Part shown: positions 17,645 through 27,614 of the stretch, one piece after another
Layout: each line of letters begins with the position of its first letter
Numbering within the stretch: position 1 is the stretch's first letter
NCBI GenBank assembly: GCA_000799755.1
Contig: JUHI01000005.1
Span: 124,001-188,000, forward strand
Source of the DNA: Martinezella tropici
GTDB lineage: Bacteria > Pseudomonadota > Alphaproteobacteria > Rhizobiales > Rhizobiaceae
Direction of reading: 5' to 3'
DNA: 64,000 nucleotides
Notes under the pieces: generated by a model
The model's input: only the letters and a program-made list of their open reading frames with translations
The model's database searches: none
What the model was told of the DNA's origin: nothing
Translations under genes and position numbers: made by a program

Positions 17645-18234
17645 GTGTCTTTCGCTTTTGTCGCTTCGTTTCTCTCATGCGAGGTTCGAGAAACGAGAAC
17701 CAGGAGCCTGAAATCTTTGTTGCAGCACCCCACTTGACAGCAACCGGGGCGATCGTTTCCGCTTAACTAGCTGTAACACCCTGAACGCACGATTAATCAT
17801 TTCCGCGTTCGGCAACTCCACCGCACCCTTTTCCATCCCCCTTGCGGGCGGCTAGCGGCCAAATCTTCCGGCAAGGACGACTAGCGTTGGCGCACAATCA
17901 CTTTCTTCATCTTACTGTTGACTCAAACGCGATATCGAACATAGCAGAAACAGCGGCCGGCCGCACAATACCATATCGACGAATTCGCAGCTGGCCCCAT
18001 CGCTGCTCGCACAAACGAAGGCACCACATCGGCCTTCGGTGATCTTATCGAGCAAGCAACATTTCCATCGACGGCTTGGAAACCAGCTCTTCCTTCAAGT
18101 GCCGGCTGTTCCGGCGGGGAGGACATGTTCGGCGCAACAGCCATTCGGCTTTTCACCGAATCTGCCCCAATGGACAGCTCGGATATTCATCTCCTATGAA
18201 TGATCGTCAGGAATGTTAACGTGAAGGGCGTGCC
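17645..18234. other. Intergenic region between divergent ndvB and LysR genes
   Basis: About 590 bp carrying the promoters of ndvB (leftward) and the LysR gene (rightward). I see no coding frame with a ribosome-binding site and no clear RNA or repeat. The leader of ndvB is probably contained here, but its promoter could not be assigned confidently. Confidence 0.5.
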
Positions 18235-19143
18235 ATGGGTTGGCGAATTCCTTCTTTAAATGCCGCTCGATGCTTCGTGGTCGCCGGCGAATATCTGAGC
18301 TTCACCAAGGCGGCGAAAGATCTGCATGTTACCCAGAGCGCGGTAAGCCGCCAGGTTCAAGCACTCGAAGACCAGCTCGGCTTCCCACTGTTTGAGCGCT
18401 TTACGCGACGACTAGAACTCACCCCACAGGGGCGCATTCTCCTTTCGCATTGGAGGACGGCATTCCTGGAGATCGAGAAAGGCGTGAGAGAAGCCTCATC
18501 GTTTGCGGAACACCCGATCATGACTGTTGCGATGCCGCCGACCTTCTCGGTCCGGTGGGGAACGACATGCATCATAGAATTCCAGAGATTACATCCCTCG
18601 ACGGAAATCAGGCTGCGAGTCGACAGCGACGGAGTAGCGCTCGACGGCGGACAGGTCGATGTCGCGATAGAGTTTACCTATTCGAAACGGCGCCGTCGCG
18701 GGGCCAGACTTCTGTTTGCAGAACGGCTCATGCCGATCTGCTCCCCCGCCTATGCCGCCGAAATTGCTGATGGCGGGCCCGAGCAAATGCTTCGATCCGC
18801 CACCCTCCTGCATGTCCAGCAATGGGCCGATCGGTATGGCGATTGGAAGAACTGGCTAGCGGCTGCAGGCTATCCGGGCGTACCCTTCGAGCGCGGGCTG
18901 GTGTTCGAAACCGCCGACCTGGTCCTGAACGCAGCAAAACAGGGCGCGGGTATCGGTATCGGAGACCACGCCTATATCCGCGAAGATCTGCTGGCCGGCC
19001 TTCTGATCTCGCCGTTCCCCATCACCGTCAGCTACGACCGAGGCTACTTCATCAAGGCGCGTGACGACGAGCAGGGCTCGGAGGTTCGATCCGCCTTCGT
19101 CGACTTCATGATCCGGAAGACGGCGCAGTTCAACGAGGGATAG
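18235..19143 (+). CDS. LysR-family regulator, GcvA-like, next to the DMSP lyase gene
   Basis: This 302-residue LysR protein has the GcvA-style N-terminus (SLNAARCFVVAGEYLSFTKAAKDLHVTQSAVSRQVQALED), a winged HTH in the first 65 residues and an effector-binding domain after that. The ATG at 18235 is preceded by AAGGGCG. It sits on the same strand 161 bp upstream of the dddP-like gene, so it is the probable regulator of DMSP or betaine use. That functional link is inferred from position only. Confidence 0.9.
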   Translation: MGWRIPSLNAARCFVVAGEYLSFTKAAKDLHVTQSAVSRQVQALEDQLGFPLFERFTRRLELTPQGRILLSHWRTAFLEIEKGVREASSFAEHPIMTVAMPPTFSVRWGTTCIIEFQRLHPSTEIRLRVDSDGVALDGGQVDVAIEFTYSKRRRRGARLLFAERLMPICSPAYAAEIADGGPEQMLRSATLLHVQQWADRYGDWKNWLAAAGYPGVPFERGLVFETADLVLNAAKQGAGIGIGDHAYIREDLLAGLLISPFPITVSYDRGYFIKARDDEQGSEVRSAFVDFMIRKTAQFNEG

Positions 19144-19304
19144 AAAGGCGGGGCCGATATTTGCCGCTGCCCTTGTCACGATCATGCATTCATAAAACGC
19201 ATGCATAGGCCGAGAAATCACCGTTTGTCGCCCAGTCTCCTCTGCGTAATCATCCCCAGCAACGAGATGTCGCCATGACGCGGCTCCGCAAGAGGGGAAT
19301 GCAG

Positions 19305-20642
19305 ATGGACACTTACTTTCGCGATCGTCGCAAGATCGATCCATGGCGCGACGAGCGGCTGGCAGATGGCAGCCCGAACGACAATGATCGCATTGAGATC
19401 GGACCTACGCAGCTTGCGTTCAGGGAATGGGAAGCCGCCGGTCTGAGGCCACCCAATCTGCAGCAGATGCGCGAATTCCGCTGGCGGCGTCTGGTAGACC
19501 AGCTTGTCACGAGAGACGTGGGCGGCCTGCTGATGTTCGATCCCCTGAACATCCGCTATGCCACCGATACGACGAACATGCAGCTATGGAACAGCCACAA
19601 TCCGTTCCGCGCCTGTCTCATATGCGCCGACGGCCACATGGTCGTGTGGGAATATAAGCAGGCTCCCTTCCTTGTCACGTTCAATCCACTCGTCAAGGAG
19701 CTGAGGCATGGCGCATCGTTCTTCTACAATGTTAGTGGCGATGCGACGGAGTTTGACGCCCGGTCATTCGCAGCACAGGTCGACGACGTCATGCGGCTTC
19801 ACGCCGGCTCCAACCGACGCATCGCCGTCGACAAGATCATGGTTCATGGCTTGCGTGCACTGGAACGCCGAAGCTTCGACGTCCTCGAGGGGGAAGTGCT
19901 GACAGAACGGGCGCGCTCCATCAAGGGACCGGATGAGGTGCTCGCCATGCGCTGCGCCCATCTCGCCTGCGAAAACGCGCTCTCCGAGATGGAGGCGTTT
20001 GCACGGGAAAACGTTCCTGTCGGCAACGTCAGCGAGGATGATATCTGGGCGGAGCTGCACAAGGGCAACATCCGTCGTGGTGGCGAGTGGATCGAAACGC
20101 GGCTTCTGTCTTCGGGACCACGCACCAATCCCTGGTTCCAGGAATGCGGACCGCGTATCGTCAGCAACAACGAGATCGTCGCTTTCGATACCGATCTGGT
20201 CGGCTGTTACGGAATGTGCGTCGATATCTCGCGAACATGGTGGGTCGGAGATACGCGACCTGACACCAGCATGATCTCGGCGATGCAACATGCCATGGAA
20301 CATATTCGGGTGAACATGGAGATGCTGAAGCCGGGCGTAACCGTCAAGGAATTGACCCATGGCGGCCATAAGCTTGAGGACCGGTACTGGAAGCAGAAAT
20401 ATTCCTGCAAGATGCACGGTGTCGGCCTCTGCGACGAATGGCCGTTCGTGCCCTATTCCGACGCTTGGGTCGAAGGCGCTTTCGATGTCGCACTCGAACC
20501 CGGGATGACGCTCTGCGTCGAGGCCTTGGTCAGCCCGGAAAATGGCGATTTCTCCATCAAGCTCGAAGATCAGGTGCTGATTACCGAAACGGGTTACGAG
20601 AATTTGACGCGCTATCCGTTTGATAGCCGCCTGCTGTCCTAG
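19305..20642 (+). CDS. dddP: Dimethylsulfoniopropionate lyase DddP (M24-fold)
   Basis: This 445-residue protein of the M24 (aminopeptidase P-like) fold resembles Roseobacter-group DddP along its whole length, for example RKIDP, NDNDRIEIGPTQLAF, MFDPLNIRYATDTTNMQLW and GEWIETRLLSSGPRTNPW. DddP cleaves DMSP to dimethyl sulfide and acrylate. Counting from the start at 19305 (AGAGGGG seven bases upstream), the metal ligands fall at D295, D297, D307, H371, E406 and E421, and the proposed catalytic base at D377. These are the numbers I recall for Ruegeria lacuscaerulensis DddP. D377 lies in HGVGLCDEW and distinguishes DddP from ordinary peptidases. The downstream gene encodes a betaine-class binding protein. 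Activity itself is inferred. Confidence 0.88.
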   Translation: MDTYFRDRRKIDPWRDERLADGSPNDNDRIEIGPTQLAFREWEAAGLRPPNLQQMREFRWRRLVDQLVTRDVGGLLMFDPLNIRYATDTTNMQLWNSHNPFRACLICADGHMVVWEYKQAPFLVTFNPLVKELRHGASFFYNVSGDATEFDARSFAAQVDDVMRLHAGSNRRIAVDKIMVHGLRALERRSFDVLEGEVLTERARSIKGPDEVLAMRCAHLACENALSEMEAFARENVPVGNVSEDDIWAELHKGNIRRGGEWIETRLLSSGPRTNPWFQECGPRIVSNNEIVAFDTDLVGCYGMCVDISRTWWVGDTRPDTSMISAMQHAMEHIRVNMEMLKPGVTVKELTHGGHKLEDRYWKQKYSCKMHGVGLCDEWPFVPYSDAWVEGAFDVALEPGMTLCVEALVSPENGDFSIKLEDQVLITETGYENLTRYPFDSRLLS

Positions 20643-20722
20643 ATCGCCGCGCGCGACGCCGCCCTCGGCTATCGCTCTGTGCGCATTCATTCCCCAAAAA
20701 CAGAAACAGGAGGTCCCAGACC

Positions 20723-21721
20723 GTGAGAAGATTTTTTATTTTCATTTTGACGGCGGCCGGCATGTTGATGACGGCCTGGTCCAGCCACGCAGCCGATTGC
20801 GGCGATGTATCGATCGCGGAGATGAACTGGGGATCGGCAGGCGTCGCAGCCCATGTCGACAAGATCATTCTAGAGAACGGCTACGGCTGCCACGTGACAC
20901 TCGTCACCGGAGACACGATGCCGACCTTCACCTCGATGAATGAAAAGGCAGAACCCGATGTTGCTCCGGAAATGTGGATCAATGCCGTCCGGACGCCGCT
21001 CGATGCCGCTGTCAAGGAAGGTCGTCTAATTGAGCTTGCGCCGCTTCTCAGCGACGGCGGCGTCGAAGGATGGTGGATTCCGAAATTCATCGCCGACGCA
21101 CATCCCGATATCACGACGGTGCAGGAGGCCCTGAAACATCCTGAACTCTTTCCCGCACCTGAAAATCCGGCGCATGGCGCAATCATGAACTGTCCGTCGG
21201 GATGGAACTGCGAGATCGTCACCAACAATCTCTACAAGGCGCTGGGAGCAAAGGAAAAGGGCTTCGACCTCGTCGAGACGGGATCGGCTGCGGCCCTCAA
21301 CGGCTCGATTGCGAATGCCTTCGAGAAGCAAACCGGCTGGCTCGGCTACTATTGGACCCCAACGGCCATCATGGGGAAATACGATATGGTCAAACTGGGT
21401 TTTGGCGTCCCGAACGACAAGGCTGAATGGGATCGCTGCACGGCAGTTGCCGACTGCCCCGATCCCAAGGTCAACGAATATCCGGTATCGATCGTCCTGA
21501 CGGTCGTGACCAAGCAATTCGCCCAGAAGGCCGGCGTTGCGCTCGACTACCTCAAGACCAGAAAATGGGACAATAAGACTGTTGGCAAGGTCCTGGCATG
21601 GATGGATGCGAACCAGGGCAATAACGAAGACGGCGCACGCTTCTTTTTGCAGCACTATAGCGACATGTGGACGAAATGGGTCTCACCCGACGTCGCACAG
21701 AAAGTCAAAGCAGCACTGTAA
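20723..21721 (+). CDS. OpuAC-type glycine betaine/DMSP substrate-binding protein (no permease genes nearby)
   Basis: This 332-residue periplasmic binding protein has a signal peptide (MRRFFIFILTAAGMLMTAWSSHA) and OpuAC/ProX-class features: NWGSAGV near the N-terminus and several Trp/Tyr-rich segments (EMWINAV, GWWIPKF, GYYWTPT) of the kind that form the aromatic cage for trimethylammonium or dimethylsulfonium groups. The GTG start at 20723 follows a perfect AGGAGG at 20708-20713. It lies 80 bp after dddP on the same strand, so DMSP or glycine betaine is the likely ligand. No permease or ATPase gene accompanies it, so it must borrow a membrane complex encoded elsewhere. Confidence 0.88.
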   Translation: MRRFFIFILTAAGMLMTAWSSHAADCGDVSIAEMNWGSAGVAAHVDKIILENGYGCHVTLVTGDTMPTFTSMNEKAEPDVAPEMWINAVRTPLDAAVKEGRLIELAPLLSDGGVEGWWIPKFIADAHPDITTVQEALKHPELFPAPENPAHGAIMNCPSGWNCEIVTNNLYKALGAKEKGFDLVETGSAAALNGSIANAFEKQTGWLGYYWTPTAIMGKYDMVKLGFGVPNDKAEWDRCTAVADCPDPKVNEYPVSIVLTVVTKQFAQKAGVALDYLKTRKWDNKTVGKVLAWMDANQGNNEDGARFFLQHYSDMWTKWVSPDVAQKVKAAL

Positions 21722-22183
21722 GCGGCTGCCCTTGATGGTGGGCCGAGACAATTGCATGTCTCCATCCCGATCATTCAACGCCGATACATTCAGGCGGACC
21801 TCCCCAATGGCGCCCGGCGGCCTATCCCTACGTGCAGAATGCAACCGCGGGATAGACGACTGCTTCCGGGTGCCAGTGGAGATCAGCGTAGCTGCGGCAG
21901 ACTCTCGATAACTCCGATAGCAATACGCCCCTCAACAAGACCGCCTGCGTTTCCTCGCTCTTTCAAAATGACGAAGGCCGCCATTTTGAAAGAGCAAGCG
22001 CGATTTTGATGGCTACGCACGAGATGCATACATTGCTCTCTGCCATCACGACCTCCCTTCTTGATTGCCGTAAAATGAAGCGCAACCTACGCGCAAGTCT
22101 CCATAGGTAGTATCCGATAGAAATCCACAATCTTCCCGTGCTGCGGCGTGGATGATCAGCACCGGCACCTGAGGAGAACGAAC
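21722..22183. other. Intergenic region with no gene
   Basis: About 460 bp between the betaine-binding gene and the first tandem paralogue. Apart from the 14-bp inverted repeat at 21957-21995, I see no supported feature. Confidence 0.5.
21957..21995. terminator. Perfect 14-bp inverted repeat, possible terminator
   Basis: The arms GCTCTTTCAAAATG (21957-21970) and its exact complement (21982-21995) are separated by 11 nt. The hairpin lies 235 bp after the betaine-binding gene and 190 bp before the first tandem paralogue. There is no long U tract after it, so an operator or processing site is also possible. Confidence 0.45.
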
Positions 22184-22849
22184 ATGATCACTGGCTTCGG
22201 CGCCGTATCGACCATCTACTCTTCTCTCATTGCTTCAAGCAGCAAAGGGACAGCGGCTTCTCAGGCAAGTTCGACGACGCCTGCGGGTACCCGTGATTTT
22301 TCTCTCGTTGCGGAGGACGCCCGTGCGGTTCTCGACGCTCAATATCAGGACGCCCAAAAGAACGGCAAGAACATCACCTTCGATAGCTCCAAGCCGGGAG
22401 TTCCACTCGATCTATCTTCACTGTCGGATCGAGCTGTCGCGGCCATCGCCTTGAACAAGGACGGATTGTTCACCGATCTGGAAGTTGCGCAAGCTGGCGG
22501 CTACCTGAGCGGGCAATTGCAAGCGGTGCTCGCACCTTCTTTCAAGGCCTCCAATGGAGGTGACTTACGGCCCGTTGCTACTGAGTATCTCAACCTCTTC
22601 GACCAGCTTGACCCGGAAGTAAAGCAGGCGCTCGGAATGACCGATGAGCAGCGGCTAGCGGCGGAGAGCATCTTGAGAGACCAGGAAAAGCAATATGGGA
22701 AACTTAGTCCCGAAGAGGGGTTCCCCGGCTTCATCCAATTGCTTCGGCAAATGGCAGAGGAATGGAAGCAAAGCCATCCCGATGGCTACAATGCCCAGGG
22801 TGCAAGCTATTATACCTCCGTGAGTAATAGCCGCAGCTTCACGATTTGA
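22184..22849 (+). CDS. Uncharacterised protein, tandem paralogue 1
   Basis: This 221-residue protein of unknown function starts at ATG 22184 with GAGGAG upstream. It begins MITGFGAVSTIYSS, is Ser/Thr/Ala-rich for the first 35 residues without a clear signal peptide, and then has a mostly helical soluble body. The C-terminus (EEGFPGFIQLLRQMAEEWKQ) is shared with the adjacent paralogue. An LSSLSDRAVAAIALNKDGLFTDLEVAQA segment has the look of a degenerate EF-hand-like or helix-loop-helix region, but this is not certain. The next gene encodes a close copy of equal length, so the pair arose by tandem duplication. I do not recognise the family. Confidence 0.8.
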   Translation: MITGFGAVSTIYSSLIASSSKGTAASQASSTTPAGTRDFSLVAEDARAVLDAQYQDAQKNGKNITFDSSKPGVPLDLSSLSDRAVAAIALNKDGLFTDLEVAQAGGYLSGQLQAVLAPSFKASNGGDLRPVATEYLNLFDQLDPEVKQALGMTDEQRLAAESILRDQEKQYGKLSPEEGFPGFIQLLRQMAEEWKQSHPDGYNAQGASYYTSVSNSRSFTI

Positions 22850-22951: not shown

Positions 22952-23617
22952 GTGATCACTGGCTTCAGCGCTGTATCGACAATCTACTCTTCTCCCATTG
23001 CTTCGGGCAGCAAACGGACAGCGGCTTCTCAGGCAGATTCGACAACACCTGCGGGTATCCGTGATTTCTCTCTCGTTGCGGAGGACGCTCGTGCCGTTCT
23101 CGACGCTCAATATCAGGACGCCCAAAAGAACGGCAAGAACATCGCTTTCGACAGCTCCAAGCCGGGAGTCCCACTGGATCTGTCTTCTTTATCGGATCGA
23201 GCCGTGGCGGCCATCGCCTTGAACAAGAACAAACTGTTCACCGATCTGGAAGTTGCGCAAGCTGGCGGCTACCTGAGTGGGCAATTGCAAGCGGCTTTGG
23301 CACCTTCGTTCGCTGCCTCACGTTTGGGGGACACTCTTGCGCCATTTAAAGAGGTCTTGACGCTCTATGACCAGCTGGAGCCTGAAGTCAGACAAGCGCT
23401 CGGGCTAACCGACGAGCATAAGCTCGCCATTCAACAAGTGATTGCCAAGGGTCAGGCAAACTCAGAAGAGACAACGTCCGAAGAGGGATTTCCCGGCTTT
23501 ATCCAATTGCTTCGGCAAATGGCGGAGGAATGGAAGCAAAACCATCCTGATGGCTATACTCCCCAGGGCGCAACCTATTACACGTCTGAGAGCAACAGCC
23601 GCAGCTTCATGATTTGA
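22952..23617 (+). CDS. Uncharacterised protein, tandem paralogue 2
   Basis: This 221-residue copy of the preceding gene starts with GTG at 22952 (GGAGAG upstream). About the first 118 residues and the last 50 nearly match paralogue 1, while residues of roughly 119-168 differ almost completely. Equal total length with a divergent centre suggests either selection on the central segment or gene conversion of the flanks. No signal peptide or membrane segment is evident. Function unknown. Confidence 0.8.
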   Translation: MITGFSAVSTIYSSPIASGSKRTAASQADSTTPAGIRDFSLVAEDARAVLDAQYQDAQKNGKNIAFDSSKPGVPLDLSSLSDRAVAAIALNKNKLFTDLEVAQAGGYLSGQLQAALAPSFAASRLGDTLAPFKEVLTLYDQLEPEVRQALGLTDEHKLAIQQVIAKGQANSEETTSEEGFPGFIQLLRQMAEEWKQNHPDGYTPQGATYYTSESNSRSFMI

Positions 23618-24795: not shown

Positions 24796-25305
24796 ATGCG
24801 TGAACTTATTCGCTTTGCGTGGGGAGCCAGCTCCCTCGGCAAGTTTGTGGTGGCAACCTCAGAAAAGGGCATCGTGGCCCTCGCATTCAGCGAGATGCGC
24901 GGCGCGATGGAAGATGCGCTGCGTATCCGCTTTGCGGATGCGGATCTGGAGCGGCATCAAGAGGATCTCAAGAGTGTGGTCGAGGCAACCGGCGGCGCGA
25001 TCGAGAAGCCCGCCGCCGGTTGCAACTTGCCGCTTGACCTGCGCGGGACACCGGACGAGATAAGGATCTGGAGCCTGCTACGGGACATCCCTGCCGGCCA
25101 GACGACAAGTTATGGCGCCCTCGCCGCCAAATTCGGTACGCGTGACGCAAGAGAGGTCACGGCAGCAATTGCCAATAATCCGATCGCCGTCATCGTGCCG
25201 TGCCATCGCGTCATCAAGAAGGACGGTTCGATTTCCGGTTATCGTTGGGGTGTTCGGCGCAAGCGGGCGCTTCTCGAACGCGAGCAGCGTCTGATGGGAT
25301 GCTGA
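24796..25305 (+). CDS. ogt: Methylated-DNA--protein-cysteine methyltransferase (MGMT)
   Basis: This 169-residue protein transfers the methyl group from O6-methylguanine (or O4-methylthymine) to its own active-site cysteine. The PCHRV motif (C136), the preceding ANNPIAVIVPCHRV segment, the RGT-x-DEIR-x-W helix and the C-terminal GYRWGVRRKRALLEREQ are all typical. It is the first of three MGMT domains in the island; the others are at 27611-28177 and in Ada. A copy of the island box precedes it, and gene 25351-25935 follows 45 bp later on the same strand. Confidence 0.93.
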   Translation: MRELIRFAWGASSLGKFVVATSEKGIVALAFSEMRGAMEDALRIRFADADLERHQEDLKSVVEATGGAIEKPAAGCNLPLDLRGTPDEIRIWSLLRDIPAGQTTSYGALAAKFGTRDAREVTAAIANNPIAVIVPCHRVIKKDGSISGYRWGVRRKRALLEREQRLMGC

Positions 25306-26861: not shown

Positions 26862-27614
26862 TCAGCGCGCATCGTGGAAGATGATTCCGACCGTATGACG
26901 CATGCCAGACCGAACACGGCTGACACCGTGACGAAGGTTGACGCGATAGTTCCCCTTCGCGCCATGAACGGGGCGATTGTGTACCGCAAAGGCCACCGCA
27001 TCTCCCTGGCGAAGAGGCACTACCTCAACACGGCTTTGCATGCGTGGCCGCTGTTCGGTCAACGCGAATTCGCCGCCCGTGAAATCTCGTCCTGGTTCGG
27101 AAAGCAGGATCGCAACCTGAATCGGAAAAGCGATGTCACCGTAGAGATCCTGGTGGAGGCAATTGAAATCCCCGGGAACATATTGCAGCAGCAATGGCGT
27201 GGGTCTGGTCTGACCTGCGTCATGACAACGCTGCAGGAAGGTGGCGTGATCATGCGGGAACCGCTCGTCGAGCCCCATGCGCTCGTTCCAACCATTGGCA
27301 ACCGCCGCCAGCCACGGATAAAGGGCCGTGCGAAGCCCGGTTAGCGGATCAGGCAGTGGATATTTGAAGTAACGATACTCACCCTTGCCGAACCCATGGC
27401 GCGCCATAATGATATGGCTGCGGAAATGGGTTTCGTCCGTGTAGAGGCCAGCCAGAGCCTTGCATTCCTCGGCAGTGAGCAGCTTCGGCAGCACCGCGCA
27501 GCCGAAACTGTTGAGGTCTGTTGCAAGCGCATCCCAGTCATAGGCGCCGACCTTGCCCCCAGCGGATAATGCCTCAGACGCAAGTTCCATGGTGTCCGCG
27601 CGGATCTGCTTCAT
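26862..27614 (-). CDS. 2OG-Fe(II) oxygenase of the Oxygenase-NA type
   Basis: This 250-residue protein is related to the 2-oxoglutarate/Fe(II) dioxygenases named Oxygenase-NA (PF09859), predicted from genome context to act on nucleic acids. The metal motif H154-Q-D156 lies in CLHQDLYGD; a distal His and Arg lie in the C-terminal RVNLRHGVSRVRSGMRHTVGIIFHDAR. Its ATG overlaps the stop of the second MGMT gene by four bases (ATGA), so the two are translationally coupled. A role in repairing or editing alkylated nucleic acid is a reasonable inference; the substrate is unknown. Confidence 0.82.
   Translation of the reverse strand: MKQIRADTMELASEALSAGGKVGAYDWDALATDLNSFGCAVLPKLLTAEECKALAGLYTDETHFRSHIIMARHGFGKGEYRYFKYPLPDPLTGLRTALYPWLAAVANGWNERMGLDERFPHDHATFLQRCHDAGQTRPTPLLLQYVPGDFNCLHQDLYGDIAFPIQVAILLSEPGRDFTGGEFALTEQRPRMQSRVEVVPLRQGDAVAFAVHNRPVHGAKGNYRVNLRHGVSRVRSGMRHTVGIIFHDAR

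Follow-up and report, generated by a model that had tools for sequence, protein, structure and literature searches.

A conserved, likely laterally acquired dddP cassette in Rhizobium and its possible role in DMSP cleavage

A DddP gene between a regulator and a binding-protein gene

We analysed a 64,000-nucleotide stretch (the window, meaning that whole stretch; G000:C5:124001-188000) of a genome of 8.05 Mb in 74 contigs, in which three consecutive plus-strand genes encode a LysR-type regulator, a protein of the dimethylsulfoniopropionate (DMSP) lyase family DddP and an OpuAC-type substrate-binding protein (Table 1). DddP enzymes, best known from marine bacteria, are homodimers that split DMSP into dimethyl sulfide and acrylate. 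A first-pass annotation of this DNA had called the genome rhizobial, which is correct taxonomically: it shares its genus with Rhizobium sp. P38BS-XIX, a pastureland bulk-soil isolate (PMC7840833) and the one further genus member that carries this cassette.

The longest open reading frame (ORF) for dddP starts at 19275 (455 amino acids); we number residues from the ATG at 19305, which has a ribosome-site-like AGAGGGG upstream (by eye) and lines up with where the DddP of Ruegeria lacuscaerulensis (RlDddP) begins. The protein scored 837.5 bits against NF043017, the NCBIfam model for DddP (cut-off 600; model positions 2-442 of 443), and NCBI's model would itself name the gene DddP; the second-best NCBIfam model, ectoine hydrolase, reached 36.6 bits. 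Without gaps, it is identical to RlDddP at 296 of 444 positions (66.7%) and to the DddP of Roseobacter denitrificans (RdDddP) at 286 of 444 (64.4%), and its best solved-structure matches are 4rzy and 4rzz (E value 3.3e-211) and 4b28 (8e-201). The organism assigned here to the 4rzy set (4rzy, 4rzz, 4s00 and 4s01, presumably all Ruegeria lacuscaerulensis; 4b28 is RdDddP) is our own attribution, as the PDB table says just 'Peptidase M24' and similar. One member, 4s01, is cited as DddP (PMC10686828). Profile score, identity and the tree placement described below agree with the first-pass call of a true DddP, and the window gene adds a member to a known family.

Counted from ATG 19305, the metal ligands D295, D297, D307, H371, E406 and E421 and the catalytic base D377 stand at the numbers that the first-pass annotation had given; Y366 is also present, and RlDddP and RdDddP share the ligands, Y366 and D377. 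Taking the ligands and D377 as diagnostic of DddP, as had been done there, did not hold up. We compared nine active-site positions (295, 297, 307, 366, 371, 377, 378, 406 and 421), and all nine reference letters occur in the window protein, in 80 of 80 loci from a scan of named genomes (the best 80 of 593 relatives), in 27 of 30 loci from the same GTDB family (the window among the 30; the other three have Asp at 406) and in all ten DddP-like loci examined in the genus. Among the sequences used for the tree, 75 of 78 DddP rows and 19 of 23 rows below the DddP cut-off carry the full set, the remaining four below-cut-off rows differing solely by Gly at 377. The letters cited for DddP are common to a DddP-like sister group, and we rejected them as proof of DddP. 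A literature search for papers treating DddP together with D377 and Y366 returned none; Tyr366 and Asp377 are elsewhere termed invariant in DddP, and Asp297 is described as not conserved with methionine aminopeptidases (PMC4108388). Eleven other positions split DddP from DddP-like rows (I11, P13, D21, E31, T35, A103, W115, G136, A137, F155 and G282), and at each of them the window protein carries the letter typical of DddP; they were picked from this very alignment, which includes the window row, and 5 of the 11 differ mainly through gaps in the DddP-like rows.

Table 1 Features of the window discussed in the text.
Feature	Position	Strand	Basis or remarks
LysR-type regulator, 302 aa	18235..19143	+	HTH_1 and LysR_substrate domains; GcvA-like
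30-bp block, candidate operator or promoter element	19201..19230	+	Identical in both Rhizobium cassettes
dddP, DMSP lyase family DddP, M24 fold, 445 aa	19305..20642	+	NF043017, identity, tree, dN/dS
Betaine-type substrate-binding protein (OpuAC), 332 aa	20723..21721	+	PF04069, structure 7yle, DmpX pocket residues
NdvB-type protein, 2830 aa	9152-17644		GH94 supersandwich and catalytic domains

Phylogenetic placement and distribution

A tree of 101 rows (IQ-TREE quick search; support by the Shimodaira-Hasegawa-like approximate likelihood ratio test, SH-aLRT, only, with no bootstrap; rooted by choice on the 23 below-cut-off rows) comprised the window, two reference structures, 44 of the 80 named loci, 29 of the 30 family loci (the window's copy excluded), 5 of 10 DddP-like loci of the genus, L198, L202-L205 and 15 proteins from 13 loci (L236-L248), and was built without fungal, Oceanimonas and Roseovarius nubinhibens DddPs. 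The window DddP pairs with that of P38BS-XIX (SH-aLRT 99), the pair next joins one Rhodobacterales metagenome-assembled genome (MAG; 97), and these fall in a 25-row clade (100) whose remaining rows are Paracoccaceae or unplaced relatives, including Rhodobacter, Tabrizicola, Gemmobacter, Fuscibacter, Pseudorhodobacter, Defluviimonas and one Yoonia MAG. Together with the Roseobacter branch, which holds 4rzy and 4b28, this group lies in a 51-row clade (100), and the 23 below-cut-off rows fall on one side of a branch (99). The tree program's long-branch warning concerned the DddP-like rows and L120, with the window's row not flagged. Phylogeny, the check that the first-pass annotation had proposed, thus places the window protein within the clade of characterised DddPs, although unlike RlDddP and RdDddP it sits on the Rhodobacter-type branch, has a Rhizobium host and is linked to lysR and binding-protein genes. 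Because of this placement, we consider a Rhodobacter-type Paracoccaceae lineage the probable donor. 'Inland' was dropped as a name for the 25-row clade, as some of its names suggest tidal flats or estuaries.

Of the 148 genomes of the genus, 52 gave matches at E 1e-60 or better; two of these are DddP (the window, 100%; P38BS-XIX, 86% identity) and 50 are DddP-like at 32-40%, three of which scored 358-366 bits on the DddP model. The presence of DddP in just 2 of 148 genus genomes makes a lateral gain by Rhizobium likely. More broadly, 6 of 397 sampled genomes of the order, the window's included, reach E 1e-170, the other five being 61-62% identical, and the PLSDB plasmid collection contains four records at 60-80% (three Paracoccus yeei and one Loktanella). 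More close relatives may exist among named genomes, since the best 80 of 593 were kept.

A cassette shared by two Rhizobium genomes

The order lysR-dddP-binding protein is the same in the window and P38BS-XIX, and alignment of the two is confined to 18194-20643 (76%) and 20782-21636 (80%); the examined flanks do not align, and in P38BS-XIX the cassette is flanked by genes for a phytochrome-type kinase and a chemotaxis receptor. Ratios of nonsynonymous to synonymous substitution between the two (dN/dS, Nei-Gojobori) are 0.065 for lysR, 0.043 for dddP and 0.031 for the binding-protein gene, values that are rough because synonymous sites are saturated (dS 1.7 to 3.3) and that indicate purifying selection on the cassette.

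The upstream gene had been annotated as a GcvA-like LysR gene, and this description fits: GcvA is the best NCBIfam model for its product, which is GcvA-like rather than GcvA because the score of 223.1 bits lies below the cut-off of 288. An 83% identical protein occupies the same position in P38BS-XIX, and the best plasmid match is 38%. Among the best 80 of 593 named loci, a close lysR and binding-protein gene lie nearby only in P38BS-XIX, which suggests that the unit was probably assembled in Rhizobium; three other loci of this set have LysR matches at 24-27% and one an OpuAC match at 27%, and several of the 80 end before their full flanks.

Between lysR and dddP, 74 bases before the dddP start, lies a 30-bp block that is identical at 30 of 30 positions in the two cassettes. 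In 78 stretches searched upstream of other DddPs, P38BS-XIX was the sole match; the best score in the other 77 was 18 of 30, and shuffled motifs reached 17-20 (20 shuffles). The block is thus a candidate promoter or operator of dddP, which the LysR-type protein likely regulates. The window genome holds one exact copy of the block's 22-bp core. Two near copies (C1:525864-525885 and C16:92094-92115, with 2 and 3 mismatches) were seen where well under one would be expected by chance on a rough reckoning, a reversed-pattern control giving none. We rejected the block as a regulon element, because these near matches fall within ORFs or at their ends and no regulon was found.

A betaine-type binding protein beside dddP

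The downstream protein scored 183.9 bits against PF04069 (OpuAC; cut-off 21.2), which bears out the OpuAC-type binding protein of the first-pass annotation. Its gene appears by eye to use a GTG start after AGGAGGTC and, also by eye, to encode a signal peptide. Relatives at E 1e-80 or better are found in 148 of 148 genus genomes, and the window genome itself has paralogues on contigs C9 (76%) and C8 (70%). As the C9 paralogue precedes a permease (PF00528) and an ATPase above the proV subfamily cut-off (339.8 versus 326.6 bits), the dddP-linked copy looks like an additional binding protein for a ProU-type importer. Two permease queries found no match in the window, and the nearest ATP-binding cassette (ABC) ATPase match is about 12 kb off. 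Relatives at 69-75% occur on Shinella and Rhodobacter capsulatus plasmids, so that this gene, too, may conceivably be foreign.

The nearest structure is 7yle (E 1.7e-67), which we take to be DmpX of Roseovarius nubinhibens because the eight pocket letters match the published numbers in its chain. DmpX has been crystallised with DMSP (Kd 474 nM), and its pocket consists of W35, T64, W84, E113, W152, A153, Y200 and W202 (PMC10030565). The window protein shares the OpuAC fold, is identical to DmpX at 118 of 311 residues (38%) and keeps seven of the eight, all except A153, which is Asn162. DmpX is encoded with DmpW and DmpV, in contrast to the window protein, which has no permease or ATPase match beside it and whose closer kin are binding proteins throughout the genus. 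From these comparisons, the protein likely binds betaine and plausibly DMSP.

A proposed route for DMSP and the case against it

Together, these data lead us to favour, with moderate confidence, a laterally acquired DddP cassette working on DMSP. In this scheme, dddP would have come from the Rhodobacter-type Paracoccaceae lineage and been joined in Rhizobium to the LysR regulator and an extra, genus-type betaine-binding protein. The latter would capture DMSP, and probably other betaines too, in the periplasm and pass it to a permease and ATPase encoded elsewhere, for which the ProU-type operon on contig C9 is the candidate. In the cytoplasm, the two-metal DddP, itself likely active on DMSP, would hold the DMSP carboxylate while Asp377 abstracts the alpha proton, and beta-elimination would yield dimethyl sulfide and acrylate. 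LysR would control dddP through the 30-bp block, and an AcuI-like reductase may remove the acrylate; an AcuI/YhdH-type gene on contig C27 passes the TIGR02823 subfamily model (424.9 bits, cut-off 297.25), and AcuI of R. leguminosarum (pRL120182) is reported to confer acrylate resistance on an E. coli YhdH mutant (PMC3338564).

Several observations weigh against this interpretation. The C27 protein falls below the AcuI equivalog cut-off (426.6 versus 440), as the best PrpE match does below its own (545.1 versus 827.4). The window's pocket letters recur in 31 of 34 aligned binding-protein rows (the window and its C9 paralogue included), most of them from genus genomes without DddP, and the window copy is no closer to DmpX (37.5%) than the paralogues are (37.8 and 39.6%). 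Of the first-pass label 'betaine/DMSP-binding', the betaine part is likely and the DMSP part plausible, with no sign of specificity for DMSP. For the members of the 25-row clade, no activity measurements are known to us. The Michaelis constant (Km) of DddP for DMSP is reported as 14-17 mM (PMC5395565), and with a millimolar Km, DMSP may not be the best DddP substrate. Finally, the genome G198, also from this GTDB family, has a true DddP (849.2 bits) in a betaine-demethylase-type operon, a Rieske-reductase-M24 run (L250 3382-9231) in which it takes the slot that a DddP-like protein occupies in Rhizobium. Our confidence is held to this level because the wider DddP group is repeatedly tied to betaine use.

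These ties support the strongest alternative, that the protein has DddP fold and chemistry but functions in degrading a nitrogen betaine (proline-betaine or a related compound), with DMSP cleavage as a side activity; we regard this as unlikely. The adjoining betaine-binding protein would then match its usual ligand, and the high Km for DMSP fits as well. The DddP-like proteins share the catalytic letters (see above), and Rieske oxygenase and reductase genes lie beside all ten genus DddP-like loci examined, out of 50 such genomes. On R. beringeri plasmid pRlX1, the DddP-like gene (WSG76712.1) follows a Rieske oxygenase and reductase and adjoins genes for a 4-hydroxyproline epimerase and a glycine betaine/proline ABC transporter; its product has the same fold family and the same nine active-site letters as the window DddP, from which it differs in its 37.7% identity, its position outside the DddP clade and the demethylase-type operons in which such genes lie. 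The Rieske-reductase-peptidase order occurs in Paraburkholderia too, and no paper joining a proline-betaine cluster with a peptidase was found in the literature searched. The Rieske protein of the G198 run, which has a flavoenzyme gene beside it on the opposite strand, shares 80% identity with its R. beringeri counterpart, and the structure nearest to it is 4qup, listed as 'Monoxygenase; demethylase' and, we believe, a stachydrine demethylase. The DddP of Paracoccus yeei (67%) precedes an enolase-superfamily gene nearest 4e8g/4izg, 2pmq and 4h2h, some of which we take to be hydroxyproline-betaine epimerases.

Against a nitrogen-betaine role, we saw neither a demethylase nor an epimerase gene next to the window cassette, and G198 is the one genome with a close Rieske neighbour among 120 true-DddP loci, two further loci having matches of just 22-24% (L249-L251 duplicate three others of the 120 and L108 is the window; flanks span 1.5-8 kb, some shorter). 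RlDddP, at 66.7% identity, is moreover reported as a measured DMSP lyase (PMC5395565).

On the Paracoccus yeei plasmid (L204 4826-8504), DddP is flanked by an alcohol-dehydrogenase-family gene and by the enolase-superfamily gene mentioned above. In G475 (L198 5464-9844), genes for a LysR-like protein, a DddP-like M24 protein (31-32% identical to the window DddP, Gly at 377), a binding protein (60-61% identity with that of the window) and a 3-hydroxyisobutyrate-dehydrogenase-like protein stand in an order that echoes the window's.

Vertical descent of an ancient rhizobial DddP that most species have since lost has in its favour the 33 of 394 sampled GTDB-family genomes that exceed the DddP cut-off (the window's and 32 others), but we consider it very improbable: none of the 29 family loci in the tree groups with the window (L106, L107 and L109 lie within the 51 rows apart from it, and the remaining 26 outside), the two Rhizobium sequences are nested within a Paracoccaceae-type clade, 146 of 148 genus genomes have no DddP-level match and the two cassettes have unrelated surroundings. 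A degenerate or contaminant gene without a role is scarcely credible despite an assembly rated 8.97% contaminated, given that the gene lies within a 390-kb contig and adjoins an ndvB that over its first 348 residues shares 93-95% identity with eight other genus genomes, that an independent soil isolate has the same cassette, that the ORFs are intact with low dN/dS and that the base composition of the cassette is close to that of its flanks.

The cassette places a widespread marine DMSP lyase family in Rhizobium, one of its two holders there being a soil isolate, and as a compact, conserved and apparently regulated foreign unit it opens DMSP cleavage by soil bacteria to direct testing. That rhizobia may use DMSP is an older idea, dddD having been reported in Rhizobiaceae (PMC3338564). 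Transfers of dddP to Gammaproteobacteria, SAR116 and fungi have also been reported (PMC3338564), and a review names Rhizobiales among ddd-gene holders in general terms (PMC13360808). DddP is also reported to cleave dimethylsulfoxonium propionate (DMSOP), in a study in which a Rhizobium strain served as a host unable to catabolise DMSOP (PMC10686828). No description of DddP in Rhizobium was found in the literature searched, which comprised titles and parts of some texts. Since active-site letters do not separate DddP from betaine-demethylase-linked proteins, surveys of this gene in land habitats should rely on scores over the whole length or on trees. A bolder idea, and something of a long shot, is that DddP and its DddP-like sister form a single group of carbon-heteroatom lyases acting on onium solutes, in which some true DddPs of Rhizobiaceae act on plant nitrogen betaines; dddP away from the sea would then be an unreliable marker of DMSP use, with the G198 operon as a test case.

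Genomic surroundings of the cassette

The GH94 supersandwich and catalytic domains of the NdvB-type protein are presumably those expected of a cyclic glucan synthase of this type. In all eight genomes that carry the closest ndvB, the sequence shared with the window ends at 17797-17921 and no cassette sequence follows within 1.5 kb beyond; in the five of these examined over at least 14 kb, the cassette was still not found. P38BS-XIX has its best ndvB match on contig 29 and its cassette on contig 30. Because the cassette is not beside the relatives' ndvB and is on another contig in P38BS-XIX, the NdvB neighbourhood is incidental, and we rejected NdvB as part of the DMSP story; it says nothing about DMSP, although the first-pass annotation had read DddP together with NdvB as a sign of DMSP use by a plant- or soil-associated bacterium. 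Nor did the data show a simple insertion between ndvB and its former neighbour, as window positions 17922-45000 are unmatched in the five longer relatives.

Among genes of plant symbiosis, no nifH scored above the cut-off in the window genome, and a NodA search gave no match there and was silent in every control genome too. Downstream of the cassette, 22148-22849 and 22952-23617 encode two tandem proteins that look clearly similar by eye and have no NCBIfam or Pfam match. Further along, a methylated-DNA cysteine methyltransferase of the ogt family (24796-25305) and an Oxygenase-NA protein (26862-27614; PF09859, named for damaged DNA) perhaps form an alkylation-damage repair neighbourhood.

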